This document shows positions 28,584 through 46,135 of a DNA stretch of 58,489 bases, in pieces. The stretch's first letter is position 1; each line of letters starts with the position of its first letter. Under the pieces are notes generated by a model. That model was not told where the DNA came from and did not search any database. It saw nothing but the letters and a program-made list of their open reading frames with translations. The position numbers and the translations under genes were made by a program. Source of the DNA: Labilithrix sp. (GTDB taxonomy: Bacteria > Myxococcota_A > Polyangia > Polyangiales > Polyangiaceae). Where the stretch lies: the NCBI GenBank assembly GCA_019637105.1, contig JAHBWF010000033.1, forward strand, positions 1 to 58,489. Direction: 5' to 3'.

Positions 28584-30419
28584 ATGCGCTCCGTGGTCGT
28601 AACGTCGACGATCACCCTCGCGTCCGCGCCGCCGGACGTGTGGCCCCTCATCACCGACACCGATCGTGCCAACAGGCTCGTCATCGGCAGCAGCAACGTC
28701 TACCGGCCCATCGAGCCCGGCTCGAAGAGCAGCGCGCGCTTCGTGGTCGAGGCGCGCGCGGCCGGCTTCTCGATGAGCTACGAGGAGGCGCCGTTCGAGT
28801 GGACGCTCAACAAGTCGTTCAGCGTCTACCGCAAGATGCGCAACGGGCCGCTCCACGCGTACACCTACGGCGTCACGCTCGAGCCGAGCCGCGACGGCGG
28901 GACGCGCGCCACGCTTCGGCTCGAGCTCGAGCCGCGCCACTGGGCGCTCCAACCCGTCGCGCGGCTCCAGGGCAAGCGCATCGTGGCCGGCATGGCGCGC
29001 CTCGCCGAGTCGATCGACGCCCACCTCCGCGACCACGCGCCGAGCCCGTACCTCAAGCCGTCGTCTCCCGCCAACGCGGAGCGCCTCGACTTCGCGCGCC
29101 GCGAGCTCGGCAAGCGCGGCCTCGACGCGGGCGTGGTCGAGGCGATCGTCGAGCTCATCCGGACGGCGCCGGACGCCGATCTCGTCCGCGTCCGGCCCTT
29201 CGAGCTCGCCCGCGACCGCGGCCTCGACGGGCGCGAGACGCTCCGCGCGCTCCTCCACGCCGTGACGCTCGGGATCGTCGAGCTCCGCTGGGCGCTCGTC
29301 TGCCCGAGCTGCCGGACGGCGAACGATCAGGTGACCTCGCTCGCCGACGTCGGGAGCGAGAGCCACTGCCAGCTCTGCGACCTGTCGTACGGCGTCGAGC
29401 TCGATCGCGCCGTCGAGGCGACCTTCGTCCCGCACCCGAGCGTCCGCGAGGTGACGAACCGGATGTTCTGCATCGGCGGGCCCTGGCGGACGCCGCACGT
29501 CGTCGTGCAAGCCGTCGTCGGCGAGGGCGAGGCGCGGACGCTCGAGGCCCCGTCCGAGCCCGGCCGCTACCGCCTCTTCGCGCGGGGCGGCGCGGTGGCC
29601 TCGCTCGAGGTCGCCGCGGGCGCGCCCGCGCGGGCCGAGGCTCGGCTCGAGGGGGGCGCGCTGTCCCCCGCGGAGCTCCGCGTCGCGCCCGAGGGGCAGG
29701 TGGTCGTGGTCAACGCGACCCCCGCGCAGCTCCACGTGAAGATCGAGCGCCTCGGCTACGCCACGCTGGCGGCGACGGCGCACGTCGTCACCACGATGAC
29801 CGAGTTCCGCCGCCTCTTCTCGAAGGACCTCCTCAAGCCGAGCACCCCGCTGAAGGTCGCGAGCTCGACGATCCTCTTCAGCGACCTCACCGGCTCGACC
29901 GCGCTCTACACGGCCGCCGGAGACGCGGCGGCGTTCCGGCTCGTCGACGATCACTTCGACGTGCTCCGGAGGGTGATCGACGCGCACGGAGGCGTGGTCG
30001 TGAAGACGATGGGCGACGCGGTCATGGCCGCGTTCGTCGACCCGCTCGGCGGAGTGCGCGCGGCGATCGCGTGCCTGCACGCCTTCGAGGAGTTCCGCGT
30101 CGACGCCGCCAACGGCGAGCTCACCGGCATCAAGCTCGGGCTCTTCACCGGGCCCTGCTACGTCGTCACGGCGAACGACGCGATCGACTACTTCGGGCAG
30201 ACCGTGAACTGCGCCGCGCGCGTCCAGCACTGCGCCGAGACCGGGCAGATCGTCTTCGAGGAGGACGTGTACGCGCGCCTCGCGGACGAGGACAAGGCGA
30301 AGCTCCGGCTGATCGAGCGCGTCGAGACGCGGGTGAAGGGCGTCGAGCACGCGCTCAGGCTCGTGCGGACGCGGCTCGCGGTCGACGTCGTCAGCGAGCG
30401 CGCCGCGCGCGCGGTGTGA
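28584..30419 (+). CDS. class III adenylate/guanylate cyclase with N-terminal SRPBCC domain
   Basis: 611-aa fusion. Residues 1-150 look like an SRPBCC (START-like) ligand-binding domain (ASAPPDVWPLITDTDRANRL). Residues about 155-420 contain a helical region, a zinc-ribbon-like CPSC...CQLC pair (about 240-265) and a beta domain, as in DUF5939-type proteins. From about residue 425 there is a class III catalytic domain: FSDLTGSTALY (metal Asp), KTMGDAVMAAF (second metal Asp) and NCAARV (Asn and Arg for ribose and transition state). It should therefore make cAMP or cGMP. No membrane segment. The combination suggests a cyclase controlled by a lipid-like or hydrophobic ligand, which is inference. 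Confidence 0.85.
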   Translation: MRSVVVTSTITLASAPPDVWPLITDTDRANRLVIGSSNVYRPIEPGSKSSARFVVEARAAGFSMSYEEAPFEWTLNKSFSVYRKMRNGPLHAYTYGVTLEPSRDGGTRATLRLELEPRHWALQPVARLQGKRIVAGMARLAESIDAHLRDHAPSPYLKPSSPANAERLDFARRELGKRGLDAGVVEAIVELIRTAPDADLVRVRPFELARDRGLDGRETLRALLHAVTLGIVELRWALVCPSCRTANDQVTSLADVGSESHCQLCDLSYGVELDRAVEATFVPHPSVREVTNRMFCIGGPWRTPHVVVQAVVGEGEARTLEAPSEPGRYRLFARGGAVASLEVAAGAPARAEARLEGGALSPAELRVAPEGQVVVVNATPAQLHVKIERLGYATLAATAHVVTTMTEFRRLFSKDLLKPSTPLKVASSTILFSDLTGSTALYTAAGDAAAFRLVDDHFDVLRRVIDAHGGVVVKTMGDAVMAAFVDPLGGVRAAIACLHAFEEFRVDAANGELTGIKLGLFTGPCYVVTANDAIDYFGQTVNCAARVQHCAETGQIVFEEDVYARLADEDKAKLRLIERVETRVKGVEHALRLVRTRLAVDVVSERAARAV

Positions 30420-30485: not shown

Positions 30486-31679
30486 TCACCACGGGTAGGT
30501 GCTCGCGCGCCGGCCCTCCTCGGGGCGGCCGAGCAAGAACCCCTGGAGGTACTCGCACCCGAGGTCGAGCATGCACGAGAGCTCCTCGGTGGTCTCGATG
30601 CCCTCCGCGACGACGCGCATCTGGAGATCGCGGCAGAGGCCGGCGATGCGCCCGACGATGAGGCGCTTCACGCTCGACGATTCGATCCCGCGCACGAGCG
30701 ACATGTCGAGCTTCACGATCTCGGGCTCGAACGTCGCGAAGCTCGTGAGGCCCGCGTAGCCCGCGCCGAGGTCGTCGATCGCGATCTTGTACCCGCGCTG
30801 CCGGAGCTCGGCGGTGCGCTGCCTGGCGTCGCTGATGTCGCTGATGGCGGCCCGCTCGGTGATCTCGAGCACGACCCGGTGCGCGAGCCTGGTGAGCGGG
30901 GCGTTCGCGTCGAACAGATCGTCGTCGAGCAGGTCCGCGGCGTGGAGGTTGACGAAGACGAGCTCGCCGCCGTCGGCCGCCTCGAAGGCGGCGGCGGTGC
31001 GCTCGCGGACGCACCGGCCGACGTCGTGGATGCGATCGAGCCGCTCCGCGGCGTCGAGCACGGCCCCGGGCGTCGGCATCGTCGGCTCGTTCGAGCGCAT
31101 CAGCGCCTCGAACCCGATGGTCGTGCGAGAGCGCCCGTCGACGATCGGCTGGAAGGCGATCCTCATCGACGCGAGCGCCCGATCGAAGCTCGTCGTGAGC
31201 GCGGCTTGCTCGTTCGAGGCGTGCGATCCGCCGAGCCCGGCGTCGATGGCCTCGCGCTTCGCCCGGGCGAGCGCCGCGAGCTTGGCCGCGCGGGCGAGCG
31301 CGGCGTCGAGCACGCCGACGTCGAACGGCTTCTTGATGTACGTCAGCGCGCCGAGGTCCATGGCCTCGATCGCGCTGTCGACGTTGGGGAGGCCGGTCAT
31401 CAAGATGACGGGGACGTCGAGGTCGGCGGAGCGGACGAGCCGGAGCAGATCGATCCCGTTCATCCCGTGGAGGTGGATGTCGCTCAGGACGACGTCGAAC
31501 CGATCGGCCCTCAAGCGCTCCGCGGCGCTCGCGCCGTCCGCGAGCGCCGTGACCTCGAAGCGGCGCGCGAGCATGCGCACGAGCGCCTCGCGGAGCGAGG
31601 TGTCGTCCTCGACGAGGAGGAGCCGGGGAGGAGCGGCGGGCCTGGGGGCACTTCTCGGCGGGTGGGGCGACACGGACAT
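30486..31679 (-). CDS. response regulator with EAL (c-di-GMP phosphodiesterase) domain
   Basis: 397 aa. Residues 15-140 are a receiver domain: acidic pair in LLVEDDTSL, phospho-Asp in VVLSDIHLHGMNG, Thr in ILMTGLPN and Lys in TYIKKPFD. Residues about 165-390 are an EAL domain with all catalytic positions: FEAL, VNLHAADLL, LEITERAAI, IAIDDLGAGYAG, IVKLDMSLV, VVAEGIE and LQGFLLGRP. It should hydrolyse c-di-GMP when phosphorylated by an unidentified kinase. Start at the ATG at 31679; the longer upstream frame runs through promoter-like DNA. Divergent from the GNAT gene. Confidence 0.92.
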   Translation of the reverse strand: MSVSPHPPRSAPRPAAPPRLLLVEDDTSLREALVRMLARRFEVTALADGASAAERLRADRFDVVLSDIHLHGMNGIDLLRLVRSADLDVPVILMTGLPNVDSAIEAMDLGALTYIKKPFDVGVLDAALARAAKLAALARAKREAIDAGLGGSHASNEQAALTTSFDRALASMRIAFQPIVDGRSRTTIGFEALMRSNEPTMPTPGAVLDAAERLDRIHDVGRCVRERTAAAFEAADGGELVFVNLHAADLLDDDLFDANAPLTRLAHRVVLEITERAAISDISDARQRTAELRQRGYKIAIDDLGAGYAGLTSFATFEPEIVKLDMSLVRGIESSSVKRLIVGRIAGLCRDLQMRVVAEGIETTEELSCMLDLGCEYLQGFLLGRPEEGRRASTYPW

Positions 31680-31719
31680 CAAGGTCGGCCCCAGTAAAGC
31701 GCAGCTGTCATGGTTGTCG

Positions 31720-31863: not shown

Positions 31864-32532
31864 ATGTCGCACGAAGCGCGCGCCCGCGAGAACGAGGCCC
31901 CCGAGTCCGGCGTCCGGCGCGCGAGTGAAGACTCGAGTCCGCACCGTTCGATGTCCCAAAGGCTGTGGGGGATCGACTGGAGGAGCGTCCTGCCGTGGCA
32001 GCTCGACGAGATCCGCGTCGAGTACGCGCGCCTCGCCGACGTGCTCCCGTTCATGGCTGAGCTCTTCCCCCGGACGTTCAACACCGGCAAGCAGTGGCTG
32101 GAAGAGGAGATGACCGAGGCGAAGCGTCGCTTCGGCGAGGAGATGGACGTCTTCGTCTTCCGCGACGGCGAGAAGATCGTCGGCGTCGTCACCGGCAACC
32201 CGTCGGACTGGTCGACCTACTACTGGCGCGTAGCCGGGATCCTGCCCGAGTACCGGCGGCAGGCCCTGCTCACCCGCTTCACGGAGCGCTGCTACGCGCC
32301 CTTCCGCGCGGCGGGCGTCCGGCGGATGGAGGTCGACACCTCGCCGGGCAACCGCGCGATGGTGCGCCACCTCAGCGGCCAGGGCCTCTTCGTGACCGCG
32401 ACGATGAGCTCGGAGCGCTGGGGGCAGGTCCTCCGGTTCACGAAGTTTCTGGACGAAGACGCGGAGCGCACGTTCACGACTCAGTTCCTCGACATCAACA
32501 CCACGCCGAACGCGGAAAGGAGGCAGCGATGA
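31864..32532 (+). CDS. GNAT-family N-acetyltransferase
   Basis: 222 aa. Residues about 55-190 have a GNAT fold: FVFRDGEKIVGVVTGNPSDW, the strand and acetyl-CoA loop region around VAGILPEYRRQALLTRF, and the C-terminal strands (VDTSPGNRAMVRHLSGQGLF). The family transfers an acyl group from acyl-CoA to an amine. The first 29 residues are charged and dispensable-looking, so translation could start at Met30 (31951). The stop is embedded in the start of a 9-codon ORF (ATGA). The order GNAT, tiny ORF, HDO, YcaO suggests it modifies a peptide or its product, which is inference. Confidence 0.8.
   Translation: MSHEARARENEAPESGVRRASEDSSPHRSMSQRLWGIDWRSVLPWQLDEIRVEYARLADVLPFMAELFPRTFNTGKQWLEEEMTEAKRRFGEEMDVFVFRDGEKIVGVVTGNPSDWSTYYWRVAGILPEYRRQALLTRFTERCYAPFRAAGVRRMEVDTSPGNRAMVRHLSGQGLFVTATMSSERWGQVLRFTKFLDEDAERTFTTQFLDINTTPNAERRQR
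32516..32523 (+). promoter_or_regulatory. near-ideal Shine-Dalgarno of the 9-codon ORF
   Basis: AAAGGAGG ends 5 nt before the ATG at 32529, close to the perfect anti-SD complement. It is the strongest ribosome site I saw in this part of the window, lies inside the GNAT codons, and drives only the 9-codon ORF, not the next large gene 107 nt away. Confidence 0.8.
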
Positions 32533-32558
32533 AGAAGTTTGCACGCGCGACTTTCTGA
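32529..32558 (+). CDS. 9-residue peptide MKKFARATF, candidate precursor peptide
   Basis: A 30-nt ORF (nine codons and a TGA stop) encoding MKKFARATF. Its ATG overlaps the GNAT stop as ATGA. It has an excellent ribosome site, and a 13-bp hairpin starts 8 nt after its stop. Codons include TTT, GCA and ACT, which are rare in this GC-rich genome, so the sequence is not simply background drift. Downstream come HDO-type and YcaO-type enzymes, classes known to act on peptides. I infer a very small modified-peptide precursor. The alternative is a leader peptide for translational coupling or attenuation. No homologue can be recognised at this length. Confidence 0.6.
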   Translation: MKKFARATF

Positions 32559-32566
32559 CGAGCCGC

Positions 32567-32598
32567 GGGCGTGGCCTCGTCCGATCGAGGTCACGCCC
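32567..32598 (+). terminator. 13-bp hairpin between the tiny ORF and the HDO gene
   Basis: Arms GGGCGTGGCCTCG and CGAGGTCACGCCC pair over 13 bp (one G-U) around a 6-nt loop. No T-tract follows. Its placement suggests a partial terminator or mRNA-stabilising element that would raise the peptide message over the downstream enzyme genes. Confidence 0.55.
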
Positions 32599-32635
32599 CG
32601 CCCACCCTCCGTCGTCGTCCACCGAGAGAGAGATC

Positions 32636-33340
32636 ATGATCGCTGACGCGCTCCGCGCCGACATCGAGACGTTCGCCAAGACCAAGTCCCGTCAGAACCT
32701 GCTCTTCCAGATGGCGGAGGGCGGAAACGTCGACGCGGTCTGCATCCGCGCCTACCTGACGAACCTGCACTACCTGCTGCGCCACACGCCGATCTGCCTC
32801 GTGCGCGCGCGCAAGCTCGCCCTCGCGCGCGGCGACCACGAGCTGGCCGAGCACTTCAAGCACAAGCTCGTCGAGGAGGCGGGGCACTTCCGCTGGGCGG
32901 AGGACGACCTCGCCTCGCTGCCCACGTCCGTCGAGGCGAGCCCCGGCGTGCTCCCGTCGATGGAGCGGCACGTCGCGTTCGTCGTCGAGACGATCGACGA
33001 GGACCCCACGCTCTTCCTCGCGTACATCCTCTTCGGCGAGTACTTCACGGTCGTCGTCGGGCCCGAGTGGCTCCGCCTCCTCGAAGAGCGGTGCGGGATC
33101 CCGCGGTCGTCGATGACGGTGATCGACAAACACATCGAGATCGACCGAGGCCACGTCGAGGAGGCGCTCGACTCCATCGACGACCTCGTCGGCGATCCGC
33201 GCATGCTCCCGCGCATGCGCGAGGTGCTCCGCGACTCGATGGATCACTTCTACGCGTTCTGCACGGAGCTCGCCGAGGTCCACGGCCGCGCGAGCGAGCC
33301 CGTCCTCCGCGGTCGCGCCGCCCATGTTCCGGCTGCCTGA
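32636..33340 (+). CDS. haem-oxygenase-like diiron enzyme (HDO-type, iron-containing redox enzyme family)
   Basis: 234-aa all-helical protein. Metal-ligand pattern: Glu80/Glu81 and His84 in KLVEEAGHFRW, Glu135 in LFGEYFTVV, and the HxxxDxxH motif His166/Asp170/His173 in DKHIEIDRGHVEE. This is the arrangement of haem-oxygenase-like diiron oxidases/oxygenases such as CADD, UndA and SznF, which activate O2 for N-oxygenation, C-C cleavage or related chemistry. No PQQ- or haem-specific features. The start has GAGAGAG just upstream. It overlaps the YcaO gene by 17 nt and follows the tiny ORF and hairpin. Its substrate is unknown; a peptide is inferred from context. Confidence 0.82.
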   Translation: MIADALRADIETFAKTKSRQNLLFQMAEGGNVDAVCIRAYLTNLHYLLRHTPICLVRARKLALARGDHELAEHFKHKLVEEAGHFRWAEDDLASLPTSVEASPGVLPSMERHVAFVVETIDEDPTLFLAYILFGEYFTVVVGPEWLRLLEERCGIPRSSMTVIDKHIEIDRGHVEEALDSIDDLVGDPRMLPRMREVLRDSMDHFYAFCTELAEVHGRASEPVLRGRAAHVPAA

Positions 33341-34358
33341 GGGCTGGTCGCCCCCCGAGAGCTGCGAGGACGTCGTCGTCGCGGACGGCCTCGCCATCCG
33401 CCGCGCGGGGATCGCGAGCGTCGCGCCCGACGGCGAGGAGATCACCGGCTCCGCCGCGTCGCTCGAGCGCGGCGGCGCGCCCGACGACGCGACGCCCGCG
33501 TCGAGGAGCTGGTTCGAGCTGCTGGAGCGCGCGAGCGTCGTCGAGGCGCTGCGCGCTCCCGCGTCCGAGCACGCGCTCCGGACCGCCGGCGGCCTCGCCG
33601 TGCGGGCGTGCGCGCACCGCGAGCTCTTCCCCGAGAGCGACGAGCCGGCGCGGTGGCGTCCGGCGCGCTCGAACGGCGTCGCGATCCACTCGGACTGGTC
33701 CCGGGCGTGCCAGCGCGCCCTCTGGGAGCTGGCCGAGCGCGATCGCGTGCTCGCGTCGTGGTACGGCTACACGCGGCCCGAGCGCCTCGACGGCGAGGTC
33801 GTCGAGGTCGCGGGCGCGACGCCCAGCTACGAGTGGTCGACCTGGGCGTTCCCCGAGCCGCGCGCGGGCTCGTTCTCGCGCGGCCTCGAGGTCGTGGGCG
33901 TTTTCGGGTTCCCCACGCGATCCGGCGCGCCCCTCGCGCTCGGCTTCGCGGCGCGGCCGGAGCGGCGCGCCGCGGTGGACGCCGCGACGCGCGAGGCGAT
34001 CCAGGTCCTCGGGTTCCTCTGGGGAGAGCCGATCGCGGAGCCGTCGCCGCGCGTGGAGCCGACGGCGATGGGGCACCTCGACTTCCATCAGGCGCCCTCG
34101 CGGCACCCGCAGCTCCGCTCGTGGCTCGCGGGAGAGCACGTCCGGTACGTCGCCGAGCGCCCTCGTGGCGCGACGCGTCGTGACGGCGAGGCGGACGACG
34201 GCGACGAGGTCCTGTTCGTCGATCTCACGCCGCCGTGGCTCGTGGGCGGCGCGCGCGTGGTGAAGGCCGTGTGCGCGTCGGCGCATCGGCTCCTCTTCGG
34301 CGACGCGCCGTTCGGCGCGCATCTGCCCGTGGAGCGGCGTATCCACCCGATCTCTTGA
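33324..34358 (+). CDS. YcaO-family protein
   Basis: 344 aa. YcaO proteins use ATP to activate peptide backbone amides, giving azolines, thioamides or amidines. The family features here are the first helix SWFELLERAS (about residues 62-71), SNGVAIHSDWSRACQRALWE with LAERD (about 116-140, the ATP/Mg-binding E-x-x-x-R/ER region), the segment HPQLRSWLAGEHVRYVAE and the closing block TPPWLVGGARVVKAVC near ERRIHPIS. It is shorter than most YcaOs and lacks the PxPxP tail of azoline-forming ones. I see no E1-like, TfuA, dehydrogenase or RRE partner nearby. It overlaps the HDO gene. Recognition is by eye, so a profile search should confirm it. Confidence 0.75.
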   Translation: MFRLPEGWSPPESCEDVVVADGLAIRRAGIASVAPDGEEITGSAASLERGGAPDDATPASRSWFELLERASVVEALRAPASEHALRTAGGLAVRACAHRELFPESDEPARWRPARSNGVAIHSDWSRACQRALWELAERDRVLASWYGYTRPERLDGEVVEVAGATPSYEWSTWAFPEPRAGSFSRGLEVVGVFGFPTRSGAPLALGFAARPERRAAVDAATREAIQVLGFLWGEPIAEPSPRVEPTAMGHLDFHQAPSRHPQLRSWLAGEHVRYVAERPRGATRRDGEADDGDEVLFVDLTPPWLVGGARVVKAVCASAHRLLFGDAPFGAHLPVERRIHPIS

Positions 34359-34436: not shown

Positions 34437-37400
34437 ATGGCTCCCACCGGCCCGCAGCTTCCGGGCATCCACATCCTCGACGAGCTCGGACGGGGCGCGC
34501 ACTCGGTGGTTTACCGAGCGGTCCAGGATGGGACCGCCTGCGCCGTGAAGCTGCCGAGCGTGAAGGCGCGCTGGACGCGCTGGATCTACCGGGAGGCCGT
34601 GGCGCTCGCCCGGGTCAAGCACCGCGCGCTCCCGGCGGTCCTCGAGGTCGGCGACATCGACGGCCTGCCGTACCTCGTCATGGAGCTGATCCGCGGCGAG
34701 ACGCTCGCGAGCCGGATGCAGACGGAGCGGCTCGAGGAGGGCGTGTGCGTCGCCCTCCTGAGCGAGCTGCTCGACGCGCTCTCCGCGGTCCACGACGCCG
34801 GGCTCGTCCACCGGGACGTCAAGCCGCGCAACATCATCATCGAGAGCGGGACCGACGCGCTCAAGCTCGTCGACTTCGGCTTCGCGACGCCGATCGAGCG
34901 GCTCGGGCGCGAAGACGCCGCGGGCACGGCGGCGTACGCGGCGCCCGAGCAGCTCGTGATGCCCGGGCGGGTGGACGGGCGCACCGATCTCTTCGCGGTC
35001 GGGCGGGTCCTGCTCGAGTGCCTGACGGGGAAGCCGCTGTCGACGCGGACGGGCTTCGGTCCGTTCGGCGCGGACGCTCGCATGGAGCTCATCGCCTCTG
35101 CGGTGTCGGTCGGCCTCGCCGAGATCGTCGCCGGACTGCTCGAGCGCGACCCGGAGGACCGCTACGCCGAGGCGCGCGCGGTGAAGGCGGACCTCGAGCG
35201 GATGGCGCGCGGCGAGCCGCTCCTCGGGCCGGCCGGCTACGAGGTCGATCGCCGCGCCATCCCGCTCGTCGCGCGCGACGTCGAGCTCGAGCAGGTCGTC
35301 GACTTCCTCGGCGGCGGGTCCGATCGGCGCGCGAGGGGAGGCGACGCCGAGCCGTCGGCCCGCGACCGCGGCGTGGTCCTCGTCAGCGGCAAGCGCGGCG
35401 CCGGCAAGACGCGGCTCCTCTCGTTCGTCGCGGGACAGGTGCGCGAGCTCGGCGCGGTCATCGAGGTGAAGTGCACGAGGAACGACGCGCCGCTCTCGTC
35501 GCTGCGCCGGATCCTCGAGGCGCACGTCAGCTCGACGAAGCGGCGAAGCCGAGCGGTCAGCGCCGACGACGACTTCCTCGCGAGCCTCGGCAAGCTCGCG
35601 CCGGTCGCGACCGTCATCGCCCCGAGCCTCGGCGGCGCGCCGAGCGGAGAGCCCCGCGCCGAGAGCGTGCCGCCGAGCAACGCCGCCGGCGAGACGCTGT
35701 CGGAGGGCGCCGCGGAGATCCTCCTCCGCCTCGCCGGGGGCCGGCCCCTCTACTTGTTCATCGACGACATCCAGTGGATCGACCCGGCGAGCGCCGACGC
35801 CTTGATGCGCGTCGTTCACCGGATCGGCGAAGCGCCGGTCGTCTTGTTGCTCGGCGCGCGATCGGACAGCGGCGGAGAGCTGGCGGCGCGCTTCGCCGCG
35901 GCGCAGCCGAAGCGGACGCTGCGCGTCGATCTCGGGCCGCTGACCGAGACGCAGGTCGGCGCGCTCGTGGCCTCGCACCTCGGCGAGCCGACCGCGAGCG
36001 AGGCGCTCGTGCGGCGCGTCCACGCGATGGCCGACGGGACGGTCCTCGGCGTCCTCGAGGTGCTCGGCGCGTTCCTCGACGCGGGCGCCGTCCGGCCGCA
36101 CTCTCGGGCGTGGCTGTTCGACGTGGCCCGCGCCGACCGCGTCGTCCTCCCGAGCGGGGCGCTCGCGCTGCTCGGCAGGCGGCTCGGAGAGCTCCCGGCG
36201 GCGACGCAGCGCGTGCTCGAGGCCGCGGCGGTGATCGGGACGTCGTTCGAGGACGAGCTCCTCGGTCGCGTGGTGGAGCTCTCCGTCGACGACCTCGGGT
36301 TCGGAATGGCGGCGGCGCGGCGCGCGGGGCTCGTCGAGCCCGACGGAGACGGCTGCCATCGCTTCGTCCACGACAGCCTCCGCGAGATGCTGCTCGACGG
36401 GATCGACGCGTCGACCCTCAAGAAGCTCCACCAGCGGGTCGCCGAGGCGCTCGCCGCCGAGGGCGCGACGAACGTCGACGCCTTGTGCGCGATCGCGCTC
36501 CATTTCGTCGCCGGCGAGATCGAGCGAGACCCCTCGCGAGCCCTCGACGCCTGCCGCGCGGCCGCGAGGGCGGCGCTCGAGCGCTTCAGCAACGAGACGG
36601 CGCTCGAGTTCCTCGAGCACGCGAAGAACGCGGCGGCGCGGGCGCAGCGGCGGCTCGACGCGCAGCACCACCGCGCCGTCGGCGAGGCGCAGCTCCGGCT
36701 CGGGAGGCTCGACGAGAGCCTCGCGGCGTTCGAGGCCGCGCTCGAGTGCTCGGCCGACCCGAAGGAGCGCGCGACGCTGCTCGGCCGGCTCGCGTGGGTG
36801 TACCAGACGCGCGCCGAGCCCGCGCGCGCCTCCCAGATGCTCGAGCGAGCCTTCCTCGCGCTCGGCGTGCGCATGCCGGTCGGCACCGTCGGCTCGGCCG
36901 CGCGGACCGCGGTCGCCGTCGTCGGCGCCAAGGCGCGGAGGTTCGTGGAGCGCTCGGCGCGCAAGCTCGGGCGCGACGAGCTCGAGCTGCTCTCCGGGCT
37001 GCACTACCAGAACGCGCGGCTCGGCCTCGAGTACGGAGAGCCCCTCCGCCTCGTGCAGAGCAGCGCCGAGGCCGTCGAGCTGAGCAAGCAGGGCGCCTCG
37101 GCCCGGGCCACGGCGCGCGCCCGTGCGATCCACGGCTTCGTCCTGAAGGCGCTCCGTCTCCACGACGCGAGCGCCCGCGAGTTCGCGAGCGCCGAGGCGA
37201 TCGCGACGGAGCAGTACGACCCCGTGACGACGGTCTTCTGCCTCCAGCTCCGCTCCTCCGCGGTGCTCTTCGCCGGCGAGCTCGATCTCGGGATGACGCT
37301 GGCCCGCGAGTGCGTCGACATCTTCGGGCCTTGGCTCGAGCTCAACGAGTTCTGCTACCACATCGCGAACGTCGAGATGATCCAGTCCGGGCGCGGTCGG

Positions 37401-39851
37401 TCGCTCGAGTCGTGGTCGTGGCTCGAGCGAGGCCTCGATCGACTTCGTCGCAGCAAGACGCGGCCGGCCGTCGCCGAGTACCTCTTGCACCGCGCGCGCG
37501 CCACGATGGCCGCGCTGGGCCGGGAGCCGAACAGCGATTGGCTCGCGGAGCAGCTCGTGGCGGTCTCGCCGACCAACGCGGGGCAGGGGTTCCACCGCCT
37601 CCTCTCCTGGGGACCGCGGGCGCGCTGGTACGTCGAGCGCGGCGATCTGGGCGACGACTTCGACGACCTCGTGCGCGCCTTCGAGGGCGAGGGGTACGAG
37701 GCGAGATCGGTGCACCCCGTCGTCTCGGAGTACTACCTCGCGCTCGTCCACGCCCGGATGTTCCAGGCGCTCCGCGCGAGCGCCCTCGAGCGTGACCGAT
37801 TCGTCCTCGCCCTGCGCCGCGCGATGACCGACCTGCGCTCCATGGCGAGGATCCCCGTGCTCCGCGCGCACTTGCTGCTCGCGGAGGGCTGCCTCGCGTG
37901 GCTCGAGGGGAACGATCGAAAGGCGGACAAGGCGCTCGCCGAGGCCGAGACGCTCGCCGACCAACAGAGCTGCCCGTGGGTGCTCTACGGCGTCGCTCGA
38001 ACGCGCGCGCACAGGCTCCGCGGCGCCGGGCGCGGAGACGCCGCGCGCGACCAGGCCCGCATCGCCGAGACGCTCGCGCTGGAGCACGGCGCGGTCCACC
38101 GCGCGCGCTGGGTCCGCGAGGAGTTCGCGCTCCCCGCGCCGGTGCCGGAGGTCACGGCCGTCGAGCGCTCGACGAGCAGCCGCCGCTCGAGCCGGACGAA
38201 CCGGCAGCTCGCGGCGCTCCTCCACGTGGCGCAGGCGCCGCGGCGCGACCTCAAGGCCGAGCAGCAGGCGGGCAGGATCCTCGACGAGCTGATGAGCTCG
38301 ATCAACGCCGCCCGCGCGGCGATCTGGTTCCAGCCCGAGCCCAACACGACCGGCACGGCCGTCTTCCGGCACCGCGGCAGCGACCTCTCCGTCTCGGTCG
38401 GCGCGGACTCCCCGCGCGGCGCCCTCCTCCGCGCGGTCCACCAGTCGGGGGAGCCGTGGCCGCCGCTCGACGGCGGCTCGTGCGCGTCCGGCGACCACCC
38501 GTTCGACCCGACGCGCGCGCTCGCCGTCCCGCTGACCCTCTACGACAAGCCGGTCGGCGCGCTCTGCATCGAGCGCACGGACGGCGACCCGCCGTTCGTC
38601 CTGGACGATCGCTCGCTCCTCGTCCTCCTGTCGCACCAGGTGCCGATCACGCTCGAGATCGCGCGGCTGCTGTTCGAGCGCGAGCAGCTCACGACGTCGC
38701 TCCAGCAGGCGAAGAAGATGGAGGCGATGGGCCAGCTCGCCGGCGGCCTGGCGCACGACTTCAACAACATGCTCGCCGCGATGAAGGTCGCGCTGTCCGC
38801 GGCCCGCGAGCGCGCGGCGCTCGACGCCGAGCTGACGATCGAGCTCGACATCATCTCGCAGGCGACGACGCGCGCCGCCCAGCTCACGAGCCAGCTCTTG
38901 AGCTTCTCGCGTCACCAGCCGGTGCCGGTCGCGGTGCACGACGTCAATCAGCTCATCTCCACGCTCGAGCCGATGCTCCGGCGCGTCGTCGGGCCCAAGG
39001 TCATCGTCTCGACCGATCTCTCGCCCGCGGTCGACGCCGTCGAGGTCGATCAGGGCAGCTTCGACCAGGCGCTCGTCAACCTCCTCATCAACGCGCGCGA
39101 CGCGATGCCCGGCGGCGGGACGCTCAAGATCACGACGCGCAACGTCGTCCTCGGCGAAGCCGAGGCGCAGCGGAACAGCCTCGCGCCGGGCGCCTACGTC
39201 GAGGTCGAGGTCGCGGACACCGGCGAGGGCATGAGCGCCGAGACGCTCTCGCGCATCTTCGAGCCGTTCTTCACCACCAAGCCCTCCGGCAGCGGGAGCG
39301 GCCTCGGCCTCGCGATGGTGTACGCCTTCGCGCGCAACTGCGGCGGCAGCATCGACGTCTCGAGCGAGCTCGGGCAGGGGACGCAGTTTCGCCTGTACCT
39401 CAAGCGCGTCGAGCGCCGGCGGCCTTCGCGTCCCGTCCGTCCGACGTCCAGCGTGGCGGCGCCGCCGATCGTCACGCACGAGGGGCCCGACACGATCCTC
39501 GTCGTGGACGACGACGATCTCGTGCGGCGATCGATCGCGAAGATCCTCGAGCGCCACGGGTACCGCGTCGTCGCCGCCAGCGGCTCGAACGAGGCGCTCG
39601 ACGTCGCGCGCGAGCAGGGCGAGCGCATCGGCCTCGTCATCCTCGACGTCCTGATGCCGGGCGTGACGGGGCCGGAGCTCGGCCGGCGCCTCTACGATCT
39701 GAACCTCTCGGCGAAGCTCCTCTTCGTCTCGGGCTTCTCGCCGGAGAGCATCCCGATCGAAGAGGCGCACGTCGCCGCCGAGATGCTCCTGCAGAAGCCG
39801 TTCTCGCAGACCGCGCTGCTCGAGCGCGTCCGCCAGCTGATGCACCACTGA
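34437..39851 (+). CDS. trifunctional Ser/Thr kinase / AAA ATPase / GAF sensor histidine kinase with receiver
   Basis: 1804-aa signalling fusion. Residues 10-270: Ser/Thr kinase (GRGAHSVVYRA, HRDVKPRNIII, VDFGFATP). About 285-600: STAND/AAA-like ATPase (Walker A SGKRGAGKT, Walker B LFIDDIQWID). About 640-1230: TPR-like helical repeats. About 1285-1410: GAF domain. About 1430-1660: histidine kinase (GLAHDFNNML with phospho-His near 1440; ATPase boxes NLLINARDAMPGGG, VADTGEGMS, GSGSGLGLAMV). About 1685-1800: receiver (VVDDDDLV, phospho-Asp in VILDVLMPG, Lys in LLQKPFSQ). Such hybrids are frequent in myxobacteria and cyanobacteria. ATG 34437 is preceded by an in-frame GTG at 34434. It lies 78 nt after YcaO, possibly part of that transcript. 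Confidence 0.93.
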   Translation: MAPTGPQLPGIHILDELGRGAHSVVYRAVQDGTACAVKLPSVKARWTRWIYREAVALARVKHRALPAVLEVGDIDGLPYLVMELIRGETLASRMQTERLEEGVCVALLSELLDALSAVHDAGLVHRDVKPRNIIIESGTDALKLVDFGFATPIERLGREDAAGTAAYAAPEQLVMPGRVDGRTDLFAVGRVLLECLTGKPLSTRTGFGPFGADARMELIASAVSVGLAEIVAGLLERDPEDRYAEARAVKADLERMARGEPLLGPAGYEVDRRAIPLVARDVELEQVVDFLGGGSDRRARGGDAEPSARDRGVVLVSGKRGAGKTRLLSFVAGQVRELGAVIEVKCTRNDAPLSSLRRILEAHVSSTKRRSRAVSADDDFLASLGKLAPVATVIAPSLGGAPSGEPRAESVPPSNAAGETLSEGAAEILLRLAGGRPLYLFIDDIQWIDPASADALMRVVHRIGEAPVVLLLGARSDSGGELAARFAAAQPKRTLRVDLGPLTETQVGALVASHLGEPTASEALVRRVHAMADGTVLGVLEVLGAFLDAGAVRPHSRAWLFDVARADRVVLPSGALALLGRRLGELPAATQRVLEAAAVIGTSFEDELLGRVVELSVDDLGFGMAAARRAGLVEPDGDGCHRFVHDSLREMLLDGIDASTLKKLHQRVAEALAAEGATNVDALCAIALHFVAGEIERDPSRALDACRAAARAALERFSNETALEFLEHAKNAAARAQRRLDAQHHRAVGEAQLRLGRLDESLAAFEAALECSADPKERATLLGRLAWVYQTRAEPARASQMLERAFLALGVRMPVGTVGSAARTAVAVVGAKARRFVERSARKLGRDELELLSGLHYQNARLGLEYGEPLRLVQSSAEAVELSKQGASARATARARAIHGFVLKALRLHDASAREFASAEAIATEQYDPVTTVFCLQLRSSAVLFAGELDLGMTLARECVDIFGPWLELNEFCYHIANVEMIQSGRGRSLESWSWLERGLDRLRRSKTRPAVAEYLLHRARATMAALGREPNSDWLAEQLVAVSPTNAGQGFHRLLSWGPRARWYVERGDLGDDFDDLVRAFEGEGYEARSVHPVVSEYYLALVHARMFQALRASALERDRFVLALRRAMTDLRSMARIPVLRAHLLLAEGCLAWLEGNDRKADKALAEAETLADQQSCPWVLYGVARTRAHRLRGAGRGDAARDQARIAETLALEHGAVHRARWVREEFALPAPVPEVTAVERSTSSRRSSRTNRQLAALLHVAQAPRRDLKAEQQAGRILDELMSSINAARAAIWFQPEPNTTGTAVFRHRGSDLSVSVGADSPRGALLRAVHQSGEPWPPLDGGSCASGDHPFDPTRALAVPLTLYDKPVGALCIERTDGDPPFVLDDRSLLVLLSHQVPITLEIARLLFEREQLTTSLQQAKKMEAMGQLAGGLAHDFNNMLAAMKVALSAARERAALDAELTIELDIISQATTRAAQLTSQLLSFSRHQPVPVAVHDVNQLISTLEPMLRRVVGPKVIVSTDLSPAVDAVEVDQGSFDQALVNLLINARDAMPGGGTLKITTRNVVLGEAEAQRNSLAPGAYVEVEVADTGEGMSAETLSRIFEPFFTTKPSGSGSGLGLAMVYAFARNCGGSIDVSSELGQGTQFRLYLKRVERRRPSRPVRPTSSVAAPPIVTHEGPDTILVVDDDDLVRRSIAKILERHGYRVVAASGSNEALDVAREQGERIGLVILDVLMPGVTGPELGRRLYDLNLSAKLLFVSGFSPESIPIEEAHVAAEMLLQKPFSQTALLERVRQLMHH

Positions 39852-41563: not shown

Positions 41564-44314
41564 ATGGAGCCCCGGGGGAGCGCCGAAGACGTGGACCCCG
41601 ATCGCGGGCTGTCCGAGGACGAGGCGCGCGCGCGGCTCCTCCGCTACGGCCCGAACGCGCTGCCGGAGAAGCGCCCCCCCGGGGTCGTGCAGCTCTTCCT
41701 GCGTCAGTTCCGGAGCCCGCTCATCTACCTCTTGCTCGGCGCTGCGGCGCTGGCGTTCGCGGTGGGCGAGCGCCGCGACGCCGGCATCATCGTCGTCGTC
41801 CTCTTGAGCAACGCGGCCTTCGGCATGATCCAGGAGCGCAGGGCGGAGCGCTCGATGGCCGCGCTGAAGGAGCTCGTGGCGCCGCGCGCGCGCGTCGTTC
41901 GCGGCGGCTTCGAGCGCGAGATCGACAGCACGGAGGTCGTCCCCGGGGACGTCCTGGCGGTCGCCGCCGGCGACGCGATCGTCGCCGACGGGCGCGTGCT
42001 CCGCGCCGAGGCGCTCCAGGTGAACGAGTCGGCGCTGACGGGGGAGTCCACGACGGTCTCGAAGGCGCGGTGGACGCCGGCGGAGCGGGCGGACGTCCTC
42101 GCCGAGCGCCCCGGGGTGCTCCACGCCGGCACGCACGTCACCGCGGGGCGAGGTCGCGCGGTGGTCTTCGCGACCGGGCCGGCGACCGAGGTCGGTCACA
42201 TCGCGGCGATGACGGCCGGGACGAAGGAGCCGAAGACGCCGCTCGAGGCGCGCATCGATCGCCTCGGCCGCGTCATCGTCGTCGCCGCCGCGGTGCTCGC
42301 CGTGGCGGTCCTGCTCCTCGGGCTGGCCCGCGGCGTCCCGGTCTACGAGATGGTCATGCTCGCGGCGAGCCAGCTCTGCTCGATGGTCCCGGAGGGGCTG
42401 CCCGTCGCGGTCACGGTCCTGCTCGCGCTCGGCGTTCGGAGGATGTCCCAGCGCGGGGCGATCATCCGGCGCCTCTCCGCGGTCGAGACGCTGGGCTCCG
42501 TCTCGACGATCTGCACCGACAAGACCGGGACGTTGACGAAGAACGAGATGACGGTCGCCGCGTTGTTCCTCCCGAGCGGCCGGCGGCTCCGAGTCGGCGG
42601 CTCCGGGTACGCGCCCGAGGGGAAGATCGAGGACGAGGCCGGGCGCGCCCCCGCGGCGGGCGATCCCGACGTCTCTCCGCTGCTCGAGGCGATCGTGCTC
42701 TGCAACGACGCGCGGCTCGAGCCGCCGCAGGAGCCCGGCGGGCGGTGGCGCACGCTCGGGGACCCGACCGAGATCGCCCTCCTCACCGCGGCGCGCAAGG
42801 GAGGCGCGTCGCCCGAACGGCTCCGCGACCTCTACCCGCGGGTCGCCGAGATCCCGTTCGACCCGAAGCGGAAGCTCATGGCGACCGGACATCGCGGCGC
42901 CGACGGCCCGTTCGTCGTGGTCAAGGCCGCGCCGGAGATCGCGCTGGCGCTGTCGGCTCGTCACCTCCAGGGCGGGCGGCCCCTCCCGATGACGGCGCGC
43001 GAGCGCGAGGCCGTCCGCGACGCGATCCAACGGCTCGCCGGGCAGGCGCTGCGCGTGCTCGGGATCGCCGTGTTCCGCGGGCGCGCGCTCGAGGGCGGAG
43101 AGCCGGCGGCGAGCCTCGAGCGCCTGCTGGGACACGGGATCTTCCTCGGCCTCGTCGCCCAGACGGATCCCCCGCGGCCCGAGGTGCGCGACGCCATCGC
43201 GCGGTGCCGGGAAGCCGGGACCCGGATCGTCATGATCACGGGGGATCATCACGCGACGGGCCTGGCCGTGGCGCGCGCGCTCGGCATCGCCTCGACGCAG
43301 GACCTGGCGATCGACGGCGCCGAGCTCGACGCGATGAGCGACGCGGAGCTCCTGCGACGTCTGTCCGAGATCTCGGTCTTCGCCCGCGTGGAGCCGGCGC
43401 AGAAGCTCCGGATCGTCGAGGCGCTCCAGGCTCGCGGCGACGTGGTCGCGATGACGGGGGACGGCGTCAACGACGCGCCCTCCCTCGCGCGCGCCGACGT
43501 CGGCGTCGCGATGGGCCTCGCCGGGACGGAGGTCGCGAAGTCCGTCGCCAAGATGACGATCACGGACGACAACTTCGCCACGATCGTCGCGGCGATCGAG
43601 GAGGGGCGCGCGGTCCATCGGAGCCTCAAGCGGGTCTTGCTCTACCTCGTGTCCACGTCGGGCTCGGAGGTGCTGGTGCTGTTCATCGCGCTCGCGCTCG
43701 GCCTGCCTCCTCCGCTCGCGGCCGTCCAGATCCTCTGGGTCAACCTCGTGACCGACGGCGTCGTCACGGTCCCGCTCGTGATGGATCGCGGATCGAGGCG
43801 CGAGATGGGCCGCACCCCGACCCCGCGCGACGCTCCCCTCGTGGACCGCGCGTCGCTCGGGCGCCTGGCGGTGATGATGCCCGCCATCACGCTGTCGACG
43901 CTGGCGTACTACGCGGTCCGGCTCCGGATGGGCGTGCCCCCCGCGCACGCGCGCACCGAGGCGTTCACGATGCTCGCGGTATGCCAGTGGTACAACGCGC
44001 TCAACTGTCGATCGTCGACGGCCTCGGCGCTTCGCCTCGACGTCCTCGGCAACCCGTGGCTCGTGGGCGGAATCGTCCTCGGCAACGTCCTCCACGCCGC
44101 GGTGATCTTCGTCCCGGCCTTGAACGACGTCTTCCACACGGTGCCCTTGCCGCTGAGCGACGCGCTGGCCATCGGCGTCGTGGCGAGCCTCGTGCTCTGG
44201 GCCGAGGAGCTCCGGAAGCTCGTCGCGCGGCGGCGGCGGCGGCGCGCGAGCGCGAGGGAGGCTCTCGAGCGGCGGCCGCCCGAAGGCGACGCGTTGCCTT
44301 CGGCGTCGCGTTGA
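41564..44314 (+). CDS. cation-translocating P-type ATPase (SERCA/PMR1-like)
   Basis: 916-aa integral membrane pump. The N-terminal cation-ATPase domain has GLSEDEARARLLRYGPNALP. Actuator motif LTGEST, M4 ion site SMVPEGLPVAV (PEGLP, as in Ca2+ and Na+/K+-type P2 pumps), phosphorylation motif CTDKTGTLTKNEM (Asp about 319), hinge MTGDGVNDAPSLA, then C-terminal helices including ILWVNLVTDG. These place it in P2; Ca2+ or Mn2+ is the best guess for the ion. No soft-metal CPC. The final 30 residues are an Arg/Ala-rich cytoplasmic tail. Confidence 0.93.
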   Translation: MEPRGSAEDVDPDRGLSEDEARARLLRYGPNALPEKRPPGVVQLFLRQFRSPLIYLLLGAAALAFAVGERRDAGIIVVVLLSNAAFGMIQERRAERSMAALKELVAPRARVVRGGFEREIDSTEVVPGDVLAVAAGDAIVADGRVLRAEALQVNESALTGESTTVSKARWTPAERADVLAERPGVLHAGTHVTAGRGRAVVFATGPATEVGHIAAMTAGTKEPKTPLEARIDRLGRVIVVAAAVLAVAVLLLGLARGVPVYEMVMLAASQLCSMVPEGLPVAVTVLLALGVRRMSQRGAIIRRLSAVETLGSVSTICTDKTGTLTKNEMTVAALFLPSGRRLRVGGSGYAPEGKIEDEAGRAPAAGDPDVSPLLEAIVLCNDARLEPPQEPGGRWRTLGDPTEIALLTAARKGGASPERLRDLYPRVAEIPFDPKRKLMATGHRGADGPFVVVKAAPEIALALSARHLQGGRPLPMTAREREAVRDAIQRLAGQALRVLGIAVFRGRALEGGEPAASLERLLGHGIFLGLVAQTDPPRPEVRDAIARCREAGTRIVMITGDHHATGLAVARALGIASTQDLAIDGAELDAMSDAELLRRLSEISVFARVEPAQKLRIVEALQARGDVVAMTGDGVNDAPSLARADVGVAMGLAGTEVAKSVAKMTITDDNFATIVAAIEEGRAVHRSLKRVLLYLVSTSGSEVLVLFIALALGLPPPLAAVQILWVNLVTDGVVTVPLVMDRGSRREMGRTPTPRDAPLVDRASLGRLAVMMPAITLSTLAYYAVRLRMGVPPAHARTEAFTMLAVCQWYNALNCRSSTASALRLDVLGNPWLVGGIVLGNVLHAAVIFVPALNDVFHTVPLPLSDALAIGVVASLVLWAEELRKLVARRRRRRASAREALERRPPEGDALPSASR

Positions 44315-44404: not shown

Positions 44405-46135
44405 TCACGGATGGGCGGTCGTCGCCGGGGGCTCGTCGCCGTCGCCCTTCTCCACGGCGTCGCTCTTCCGCGCCGCGACGAGCGCGTACGTCATCACCGG
44501 GCGCGCGCGCCCCTTCACGGTGATCTCGTCGATCGGGCGCGTCTCGAAGCGCGCGTCGAGGAGCGCCTTCGTGTCTTCGCTGATGAGGATGTCGGTGCCG
44601 AGCTCCTTGGTGGCGCCTTCGAGCCGGGACGCGAGGTTCACGGCGTCACCGATCACCGTGTACTCCATGCGGGCGTCGCTCCCGATGTTGCCGGCGACGA
44701 CCTCCCCGGTGTGGATCCCGATCCCCGTGCTCAACGTCCGCGCGCCCCTCGCGGCGAGGCGCTCGTTCAGCTTCACGAGCGCCAGCCGCATGCGGAAGGC
44801 CGCGCGGACCGCGTTGCGCGCGTCCTCCGGCTTCGGGAGCGGCGCGCCGAACACCGCCATGATCGCGTCGCCGATGAATTTGTCGACCACGCCGCCTTCT
44901 TCCATGATGATCGTCACCATCTCCGTGAAGTACTCGTTGAGGAGCTGCACGAGCTCTTGGGCGCTCATCGACTCGCTGATGGTCGTGAAGCCGCGGATGT
45001 CGGAGAACAGGATGGTGACCGTCAGCGTCTCGCCGCCGAGCTCGACCTTCCCCTTCAAGAGGTGCTCGAGGACCGCCTGCGTCATGTACTTGCCGAACGT
45101 CGCGCGGAGCTTGTCGCGCTCGCGCAGGCCGTCGACCATCGTGTTGAAGCCCGCCGCCAGATCCTCGATCTCGTCGCCGGTCTTCACGTCACTGACGTGG
45201 ACGTACTCTTCGCCTTCGAGCTTCTTGAGCGCGAGGGTGATGCGCCCGAGCGCGTGAGACATCACCCGCGCGAGCCGCGCTCCGACGACGACCGCCGCGA
45301 GCGCCGCGACGACGAGGACGCCGCCCGTCAGCAAGAGGTCTTCCCGGACGGCGTCGCGGAGATCCGTCACGTCGAGCGCGGCGATGACCGTGAAGCTCTT
45401 CCTGTCGCCCTCGAAGATCTTCGGGACGAAGCGCGTCATCGCCCACGCGTGGCCGCCGGCCTCGGCGACGCCGCTCCCGTCTCTCCACCGCGCCAGCGCG
45501 TCGACCGGGAAGCCCGGGGTCGCGTACCGAGCGCGGCCCGCCTCGTCGCTCACGGCGAGCTGGAGGCCGAGCTTCTCGCTCGAGCTCGTGAGGTAGGACT
45601 CGTCGAACGTCATGCACGCCATGACGAACCCCGCGCTGCCGACGCCGCGGACGATCGCGTACGCGGGGCGCGGCTCGGGCAGCGCGGCGCAACCCCTCCT
45701 GCGGACGAAGCGGGCCTCCTCCGCGCCGGCGAGCAGCTGCTCTTTGCGTGGGACACCCTCGCGCGCGTCGATGTTCGGGAGCCCCGCGTCGGCGAGCGGG
45801 CTGCCGTCCGGGGTGAGCGCCACGAGCCCGATCTCCGGGTAGTGCTCGTGAAAGACGCGAAGCGCCGCGTCCGCCGCGGGCGCGTCTCGATTCTTCAGCG
45901 CGTTCTGGAGCTCGTCGGACCTGGAGAGGGTCCGCACGGCGACGGCGAGATCCTTCACGTCGTCCGCGAGCTCGAGCTCGAAGCCGCGGACCGCGAGCGG
46001 CAGCTGATCGTCGACGATGTCGACGAGCTGACTCGACATCACGGAGTAGAGCACCGGCAGCGCAGCGAGCGTGGCGAGCGCCGAGAGCGCCACGAGCGTC
46101 GTGAGCTTCGCACGTACGGTCTTGAAGAGAACCAT
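44405..46135 (-). CDS. membrane adenylate/guanylate cyclase with extracytoplasmic sensor and HAMP
   Basis: 576 aa. One N-terminal helix (LTTLVALSALATLAALPVLY) and a second at about residues 270-290 (LLTGGVLVVAALAAVVVGAR) bracket a roughly 220-residue extracytoplasmic sensor with a Cys pair (RRGCAALPE, FVMACMTFD). HAMP follows, then a class III catalytic domain from about 365: FSDIRGFTTISE, FIGDAIMAVFGAP and GDAVNLASRLEG (both metal Asp, the Asn and the Arg present), so cyclase activity is expected. Divergent from the 46292 gene. Confidence 0.92.
   Translation of the reverse strand: MVLFKTVRAKLTTLVALSALATLAALPVLYSVMSSQLVDIVDDQLPLAVRGFELELADDVKDLAVAVRTLSRSDELQNALKNRDAPAADAALRVFHEHYPEIGLVALTPDGSPLADAGLPNIDAREGVPRKEQLLAGAEEARFVRRRGCAALPEPRPAYAIVRGVGSAGFVMACMTFDESYLTSSSEKLGLQLAVSDEAGRARYATPGFPVDALARWRDGSGVAEAGGHAWAMTRFVPKIFEGDRKSFTVIAALDVTDLRDAVREDLLLTGGVLVVAALAAVVVGARLARVMSHALGRITLALKKLEGEEYVHVSDVKTGDEIEDLAAGFNTMVDGLRERDKLRATFGKYMTQAVLEHLLKGKVELGGETLTVTILFSDIRGFTTISESMSAQELVQLLNEYFTEMVTIIMEEGGVVDKFIGDAIMAVFGAPLPKPEDARNAVRAAFRMRLALVKLNERLAARGARTLSTGIGIHTGEVVAGNIGSDARMEYTVIGDAVNLASRLEGATKELGTDILISEDTKALLDARFETRPIDEITVKGRARPVMTYALVAARKSDAVEKGDGDEPPATTAHP

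Follow-up and report, generated by a model that had tools for sequence, protein, structure and literature searches.

We found a gene for a peptide of nine residues, MKKFARATF, in a stretch of 58,489 nucleotides from Labilithrix sp. (Polyangiaceae; contig JAHBWF010000033.1; hereafter the window), which lies on one strand with genes for a GNAT acetyltransferase-like protein, a haem-oxygenase-like diiron oxidase/oxygenase (HDO), a stand-alone YcaO protein and a very large kinase. The tiny gene and its enzyme set are real and recur in related genomes above chance. Their comparison makes it probable that they form a pathway of the ribosomally synthesized and post-translationally modified peptide (RiPP) type, in which YcaO would modify a leaderless precursor of 9-10 residues at the penultimate position, GNAT and an exchangeable oxidative enzyme would tailor it, and the product would probably feed the kinase. 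The original prediction had read GNAT, tiny open reading frame (ORF), HDO and YcaO as a peptide-modifying pathway, an interpretation that our results support. The locus in the window comprises:

31864..32532 (+): GNAT acetyltransferase-like protein, 222 residues (PF00583, Acetyltransf_1, E=1.2e-6)
32516..32523 (+): strong Shine-Dalgarno motif AAAGGAGG of the tiny ORF, read from the sequence
32529..32558 (+): nine-codon candidate precursor gene, MKKFARATF (22 copies compared)
32565..32601 (+): stem-loop directly 3' of the peptide stop, without a T tract in the window (RNAfold)
32636..33340 (+): putative HDO, 234 residues (Haem_oxygenas_2 1.5e-4, below the Pfam cut-off)
33324..34358 (+): stand-alone YcaO, 344 residues (PF02624, 7e-15)
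34437..39851 (+): 1804-residue protein, probable sensor/output partner (Pfam: Ser/Thr kinase - AAA_16 - TPR - GAF - HisKA - HATPase - receiver)

The proposed identities were borne out by the Pfam matches of the GNAT that leads the set and of the YcaO, and for the HDO by matching fold and ligand residues. In the one-strand run from GNAT to YcaO, two junctions overlap, one by ATGA and the other by 17 nt. The kinase gene starts 78 bases after YcaO and is part of the same unit.

The tiny gene and its conservation

The tiny ORF was present in 22 genomes, as 22 copies, each directly after a GNAT orthologue; its predicted retention in related clusters thus held after every GNAT orthologue found (22/22). 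The peptides follow the consensus M[KR]K[KR]?FAxx[TSC][FLYHA]. Those of nine residues read MKKFARATF (three copies), MKKFARATL, MKKFALGCF, MKKFATMTF, MKKFATGCF, MKKFARTSL, MKKFATGTF, MKKFATGSF, MKKFALGTL, MKKFALSSF, MKKFAQMSF and MKKFALVCF, and those of ten residues MKKKFAHMSF, MKKKFAHITA, MKKRFALGTL, MKKRFALNCL, MKKRFALITH, MKKRFALASF, MKKRFALTTL and MRKKFALACY. Phe and Ala are invariant in all 22, with no change on a tree of GNAT and YcaO, and the codons beneath them are free (Ala GCA 6, GCT 5, GCC 5, GCG 6; Phe TTT 8, TTC 14). The penultimate residue (position -2) is Thr in 11, Ser in six and Cys in five copies, with Ser encoded from both codon families, and the last residue varies (Phe 13, Leu 6, Tyr, His and Ala one each). 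On the same tree, parsimony places about 11 changes at -2, every one of them within Thr/Ser/Cys; position -3, by contrast, takes eight residues in 13 changes. Non-synonymous single-base changes from the observed -2 codons stay within these three residues in 39 of 144 cases, and the resulting product, 0.27^11 or ~6e-7, should be taken as a rough estimate, since support is weak for some inner branches and the changes were counted by parsimony. Genomes G141 and G218 stand at zero distance on this tree, yet one carries Thr at -2 and the other Ser. To judge from these copies, the comparison shows a peptide that is conserved at the protein level, not at the codon level, and is restricted to Thr/Ser/Cys at -2.

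All 22 copies are preceded by a Shine-Dalgarno-like motif (permissive expression). The junction with GNAT is a 4-nt overlap in 12/22 loci (ATGA; GTGA in G191 and G292) and a gap of 3-127 bases in 8/22, while in the other two the peptide gene lies within the GNAT 3' end in another frame (L029, 8813-8842; L032, 5244-5273 of the reoriented locus). A precursor conserved beside its modification enzymes, as looked for in a RiPP pathway, was found in all 22 genomes.

A chance origin of the peptide pattern was rejected, since the pattern occurred in 24 of 290 genomes of the class and its reversed control in three. Six of these 24, without a GNAT, HDO or YcaO neighbour, were treated as chance (G154, G104, G071, G064, G248 and G231). 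Kinase-profile matches at paralogue level (E ~1e-23) in the neighbourhoods of G154 and G064 weigh against calling these two chance; the G248 match reads MKKFAAVTF, which also speaks against chance there, but it has no recognisable Shine-Dalgarno motif. Whole-genome searches, confined to one phylum, approached the set from its enzymes. The GNAT profile hit 19/290 class genomes, all 19 with the peptide behind it, and the YcaO profile 21/184 order genomes, all with GNAT and peptide; in 20 of these both were known before, and the twenty-first, G292, was then shown to have both. A single-sequence HDO search returned 18/290 class genomes. The HDO profile returned 29/109 genomes of the family (15 strong at E <1e-69, one broken, in G253, and 13 weak), 26/377 of the phylum (six at E 5e-53 or better, the others weak) and, in the class of G538, 1/90, G538 itself. 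Weaker HDO relatives were set aside: L092-L095 and L038 had no GNAT/YcaO and no peptide in all five, and L158, scanned for partners only, had no GNAT or YcaO. G253 (L037), whose HDO is broken and lies at the end of a contig and whose YcaO match reaches only 1.7e-7, was left out of the 22; its HDO match is split over two frames, one of whose ORFs also gives a kinase-profile match. The per-genome searches scored only part of the candidates (e.g. 8-11), so that absences are softer than presences. An exact short-pattern scan of genome contigs returned only two close relatives.

Folding of the 75 bases after the peptide stop (RNAfold, 100 mononucleotide shuffles per copy) gave a stem-loop with z <= -2 in 11 of 21 copies of sufficient length (-2.2 in the window), closely followed by ATTTTT in L023. 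In L033, L034, L127 and L176 the stem-loops were not beyond the shuffles. Stem-loops after other precursor genes can raise precursor over enzyme output; the one described here may do the same for the peptide, or it may be regulatory. A regulatory leader peptide, itself no enzyme substrate, is an alternative: as the 9-10 codons are translated, perhaps with ribosome stalling, the stem-loop would control the genes behind it. This would suit a tiny gene with a highly conserved N-terminus inside an operon and before its enzyme and kinase genes, as well as the folds just described. We consider it unlikely, however, as codon choice is free and -2 is limited by chemistry (Thr/Ser/Cys) rather than by one tRNA, as the four stem-loops named above lie within the shuffle range, and as the peptide persists in front of HDO, YcaO or the kinase alike, and also in G538, where no kinase orthologue was found. 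Moreover, Thr or Ser remains at -2 where YcaO is unlinked. The conservation of residues over codons, the fixed Thr/Ser/Cys place, the retention of an unlinked YcaO and the loss of a tailoring enzyme in a clade with a different oxidative enzyme make a peptide-modifying pathway fit better than a leader-peptide switch.

Enzymes of the proposed pathway

In the RiPP-type pathway that we propose, the peptide would be translated from its own Shine-Dalgarno motif, coupled to GNAT, and would need no separate leader, M-K-K-(K/R)-F-A serving for recognition and the four C-terminal residues as core. In an ATP-dependent step, YcaO would activate the amide that precedes the Thr/Ser/Cys at -2, most likely to give a (methyl)oxazoline or thiazoline adjacent to the last residue, which is mostly Phe or Leu; a heterocycle at -2 is the simplest chemistry. 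GNAT may acylate a peptide amine (N-terminus or Lys). A further change, such as dehydrogenation, hydroxylation or C-terminal oxidation, could be brought about by HDO, whose place a B12-radical SAM enzyme may take in one clade. The co-inherited kinase would then probably sense the product, with its AAA-TPR or GAF region as the reader. Every chemical step, like the signalling role, is one that we infer from the genes and their comparison.

The same YcaO subfamily occurs in 22/22 peptide genomes, although the G218 copy is cut by a contig end. In G285, G294 and G173 it lies on another contig, and their peptides still carry Thr, Ser and Thr at -2. Residues E65, E68, R69, E135, E138 and R139 are invariant in 15/15 aligned proteins and SNGVA is conserved; we take these ExxER-type glutamate motifs to bind ATP and Mg. 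The solved structures nearest by sequence are TruD, MusD and LynD (E 2e-5 to 9e-5). In NCBIfam the YcaO had a SagD-family match of 48.7 bits, far under the cut-off of 219, and one stray match at E 0.23; GNAT and HDO had none. Thr/Ser/Cys at -2 in 22/22 copies agrees with the Cys/Ser/Thr substrates of azoline-forming YcaOs, and -2 would be the modified site. The solved relatives of GNAT are weak and mixed and do not narrow its acceptor.

Invariant residues, the alignment to UndA and the fold give the HDO a haem-oxygenase fold with three His and three carboxylate ligands; on these features it is a member of the haem-oxygenase-like dimetal oxidase/oxygenase family, with predicted O2 chemistry. 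An HDO profile match was found in 19/22 peptide genomes, the copy of G194 being shortened and by eye without ligand motifs, and that of G218 lacking an in-frame N-terminal part in the draft. Profile searches gave no HDO orthologue in G277, G292 and G173, the last with weak HDO matches elsewhere. G277 and G292, sisters on the tree, carry a B12-binding radical SAM gene directly upstream of GNAT, with overlapping open frames and proteins 59% identical; HDO-bearing genomes lay outside the search for this gene. By this comparison HDO appears to be lost in the clade that carries the radical SAM gene and not essential to the set, whose constant part is GNAT, peptide and YcaO. The predicted four-element set thus stood in these three, whereas HDO was not found in 3/22 genomes and is degenerate in one, and the kinase has to be added in all but one. 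The alternation of HDO and radical SAM enzyme offers a natural experiment on tailoring.

A different use of a small precursor is known from pearlins, where the C-terminal residue(s) of a scaffold peptide are modified, cut off and released, in a pathway (PEARL) that uses an aminoacyl-tRNA-dependent peptide ligase. The original prediction had suggested that the peptide may be a scaffold for a small product, which found no specific support. The short peptide and the lack of a peptide exporter among the ORFs scanned would agree with release of a small metabolite, and so would the HDO reactions, which are mostly on small molecules, modification of a ribosomal peptide being cited once (in part of PMC13108848). 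No aminoacyl-tRNA-dependent peptide ligase was found among the neighbours scanned (no genome-wide search for one was made), and it is the N-terminal MKK(R)FA and -2 that are constrained, with a variable last residue. We therefore regard a scaffold as quite unlikely; with Thr/Ser/Cys conserved at -2, the peptide itself is the likelier target of modification.

Several observations weigh against the RiPP-type pathway. The YcaO lacks a PxPxP terminus, and 21/21 complete proteins end in HP[IV]x (the 22nd, of G218, is cut by the contig end); a C-terminal PxPxP is linked to azoline formation by YcaOs in the text available of PMC12338566, so that a reaction other than heterocycle formation is conceivable here. 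Pfam found no E1-like or RRE partner, protease or peptide exporter among the window ORFs scanned. HDO is lost without a visible match to the peptide sequence, inner branches of the GNAT and YcaO tree are weakly supported, the stem-loop, present in about half of the loci, is compatible with a regulatory role, and G538 has no kinase orthologue, only paralogue-level matches (best 2e-20). By eye, neither the last residue nor the HDO state showed a relation to the peptide sequence. Neither a fused domain in the 344-residue YcaO nor an E1-like or RRE Pfam match in GNAT, HDO, YcaO or kinase was seen; a partner may be encoded elsewhere, or an RRE may have diverged beyond Pfam. TfuA was absent from the ORFs of the window and of relatives given to Pfam, with whole genomes not searched for it. 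The predicted lack of E1-like, RRE, TfuA, protease and transporter genes nearby held for the ORFs chosen for Pfam over 27.3-47.7 kb, apart from a P-type cation ATPase downstream of the kinase (41564-44314, +), outside the conserved block.

Other genes adjoin two of the unlinked YcaO genes. In G173 an MNIO (PF05114, 1.9e-94; L177 3125-5200, -) with a DUF2063 partner and a short Cys-rich precursor follows directly, which we take to be a bufferin-like operon; with its own partner and precursor we treat it as a separate operon, and the MNIO was rejected as an HDO substitute. In G294 a MukB-like condensin subunit adjoins (L135 9437-14200, -).

The large kinase and a candidate signalling role

The kinase stands at the locus in 20/22 genomes, several copies being cut by contig ends. 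In G218 the locus is cut short by its contig and a matching kinase piece lies on another one, and G538, from another class, has the order YcaO-GNAT-peptide-HDO without a kinase at the locus. The kinase sensor region was found in 18 of 109 family genomes, which coincide with the 18 of this family recovered by the YcaO search of the order. The genome comparison shows co-inheritance of GNAT, peptide, YcaO and kinase. Across 13 aligned kinases, residues that we read as the HRD, DFG, Walker A, H-box and receiver sites are among the invariant ones, and a TPR_12 match at 745-805 (E 3e-5) lies below the Pfam cut-off. In RRNPP-like sensing a TPR receptor binds a short linear peptide. The link to a single kinase family suggests that the peptide serves in signalling, and it is possible, if doubtful, that the leaderless 9-10-mer, modified at -2 by stand-alone YcaO and completed by GNAT and either HDO or a B12-radical SAM enzyme, is the dedicated ligand of the giant kinase, which would make it a modified-peptide signal of a new class among Gram-negative bacteria. 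Signalling, which rests on kinase co-inheritance, is the weakest step of the pathway, and in view of G538 it is not universal.

The peptide might also partner GNAT and the kinase only, for instance as an acetylated regulatory peptide, with YcaO and HDO acting on something else. G173, which has just GNAT, peptide and kinase together, and the dispensable HDO would fit. This is nevertheless very unlikely, as G173, like every other peptide genome, still has this YcaO subfamily, and as G538 has a YcaO and no kinase orthologue was found there. Anti-phage defence was rejected as a role: PADLOC gave no match for GNAT, HDO or YcaO, and of its 33 matches to the kinase protein the 25 listed start in the Ser/Thr kinase domain.

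Just downstream of the kinase, G292 encodes a member of the 2-aminothiazoline-4-carboxylate hydrolase family (PF14196; L176 762-1457, -); the peptide of this genome is one of those with Cys at -2. In G538, ORFs with LuxR-type (GerE) and Trans_reg_C domains (L091 4839-6356, +, and 6398-7138, +) lie just beyond HDO, on the strand opposite to the YcaO-GNAT-peptide-HDO run.

Known systems and neighbouring genes

A literature search by titles and abstract openings, with subscription journals mostly outside it, found no described pathway with this gene set and no shorter natural precursor tied to YcaO; the nearest precedents include PMC8120280 and PMC4603692, each seen in part. Thiovarsolin, as described in sections of PMC6511847, likewise combines YcaO with a haem-oxygenase-like protein, VarO, both acting on a ribosomal peptide; VarO deletion suggests dehydrogenation. 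Unlike the present set, it has a repeating precursor, a TfuA partner and thioamides, and those sections name no GNAT or kinase in its seven-gene set; our precursor has 9-10 residues, with no TfuA among the ORFs scanned. Biarylitides, including the myxobacterial myxarylin, share a tiny precursor gene overlooked by annotation, theirs with a two-residue leader, but have a precursor of five residues and a P450 cross-link (part of PMC13417212). Here the precursor is longer and no P450 is among the conserved genes. The word YcaO does not occur in the available text of PMC13417212 and PMC12951456, and thioamidated biarylitides are described, in excerpts, as products of an engineered hybrid precursor with a leader.

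The cyanobactin heterocyclases TruD, LynD and MusD, closest solved relatives of our YcaO, have chains of ~780 residues, in contrast to 344 here, where a fused domain and PxPxP are lacking. In goadsporin the GNAT GodH acetylates an azole-bearing ribosomal peptide, similar to the step proposed here, but the leader is removed first, dehydroalanines are present and the available portion of PMC5303826 mentions no HDO. The YcaO of daptides works at the peptide C-terminus as well, whereas it forms an imidazoline from an enzymatically installed amine, contains PxPxP and uses precursors with a leader (as far as PMC12338566 is accessible). Members of the HDO superfamily (UndA, CtCADD and HrmI) are described, in partial sources, with the same fold and 3-His/3-carboxylate pattern; as substrates these sources name small molecules and, in the case of CtCADD, the protein itself, whereas here the peptide is the candidate.

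If the RiPP-type pathway is true, YcaO can act on a peptide without leader or fused carrier domain. Genes so short escape standard annotation, as is stated for biarylitides in the text available of PMC13417212, and similar systems have therefore probably been missed by RiPP mining.

The following neighbours, assigned by Pfam, lie outside the conserved block. Upstream of GNAT and divergent from it is a receiver-EAL protein (30489-31697, -), and at 28584-30416 (+) a protein with Polyketide_cyc2, DUF5939 and adenylate/guanylate cyclase domains. Downstream of the kinase, a HAMP and adenylate/guanylate cyclase protein is encoded at 44405-46135 (-). In G292, a receiver-GGDEF-EAL gene lies ~4 kb upstream of GNAT.

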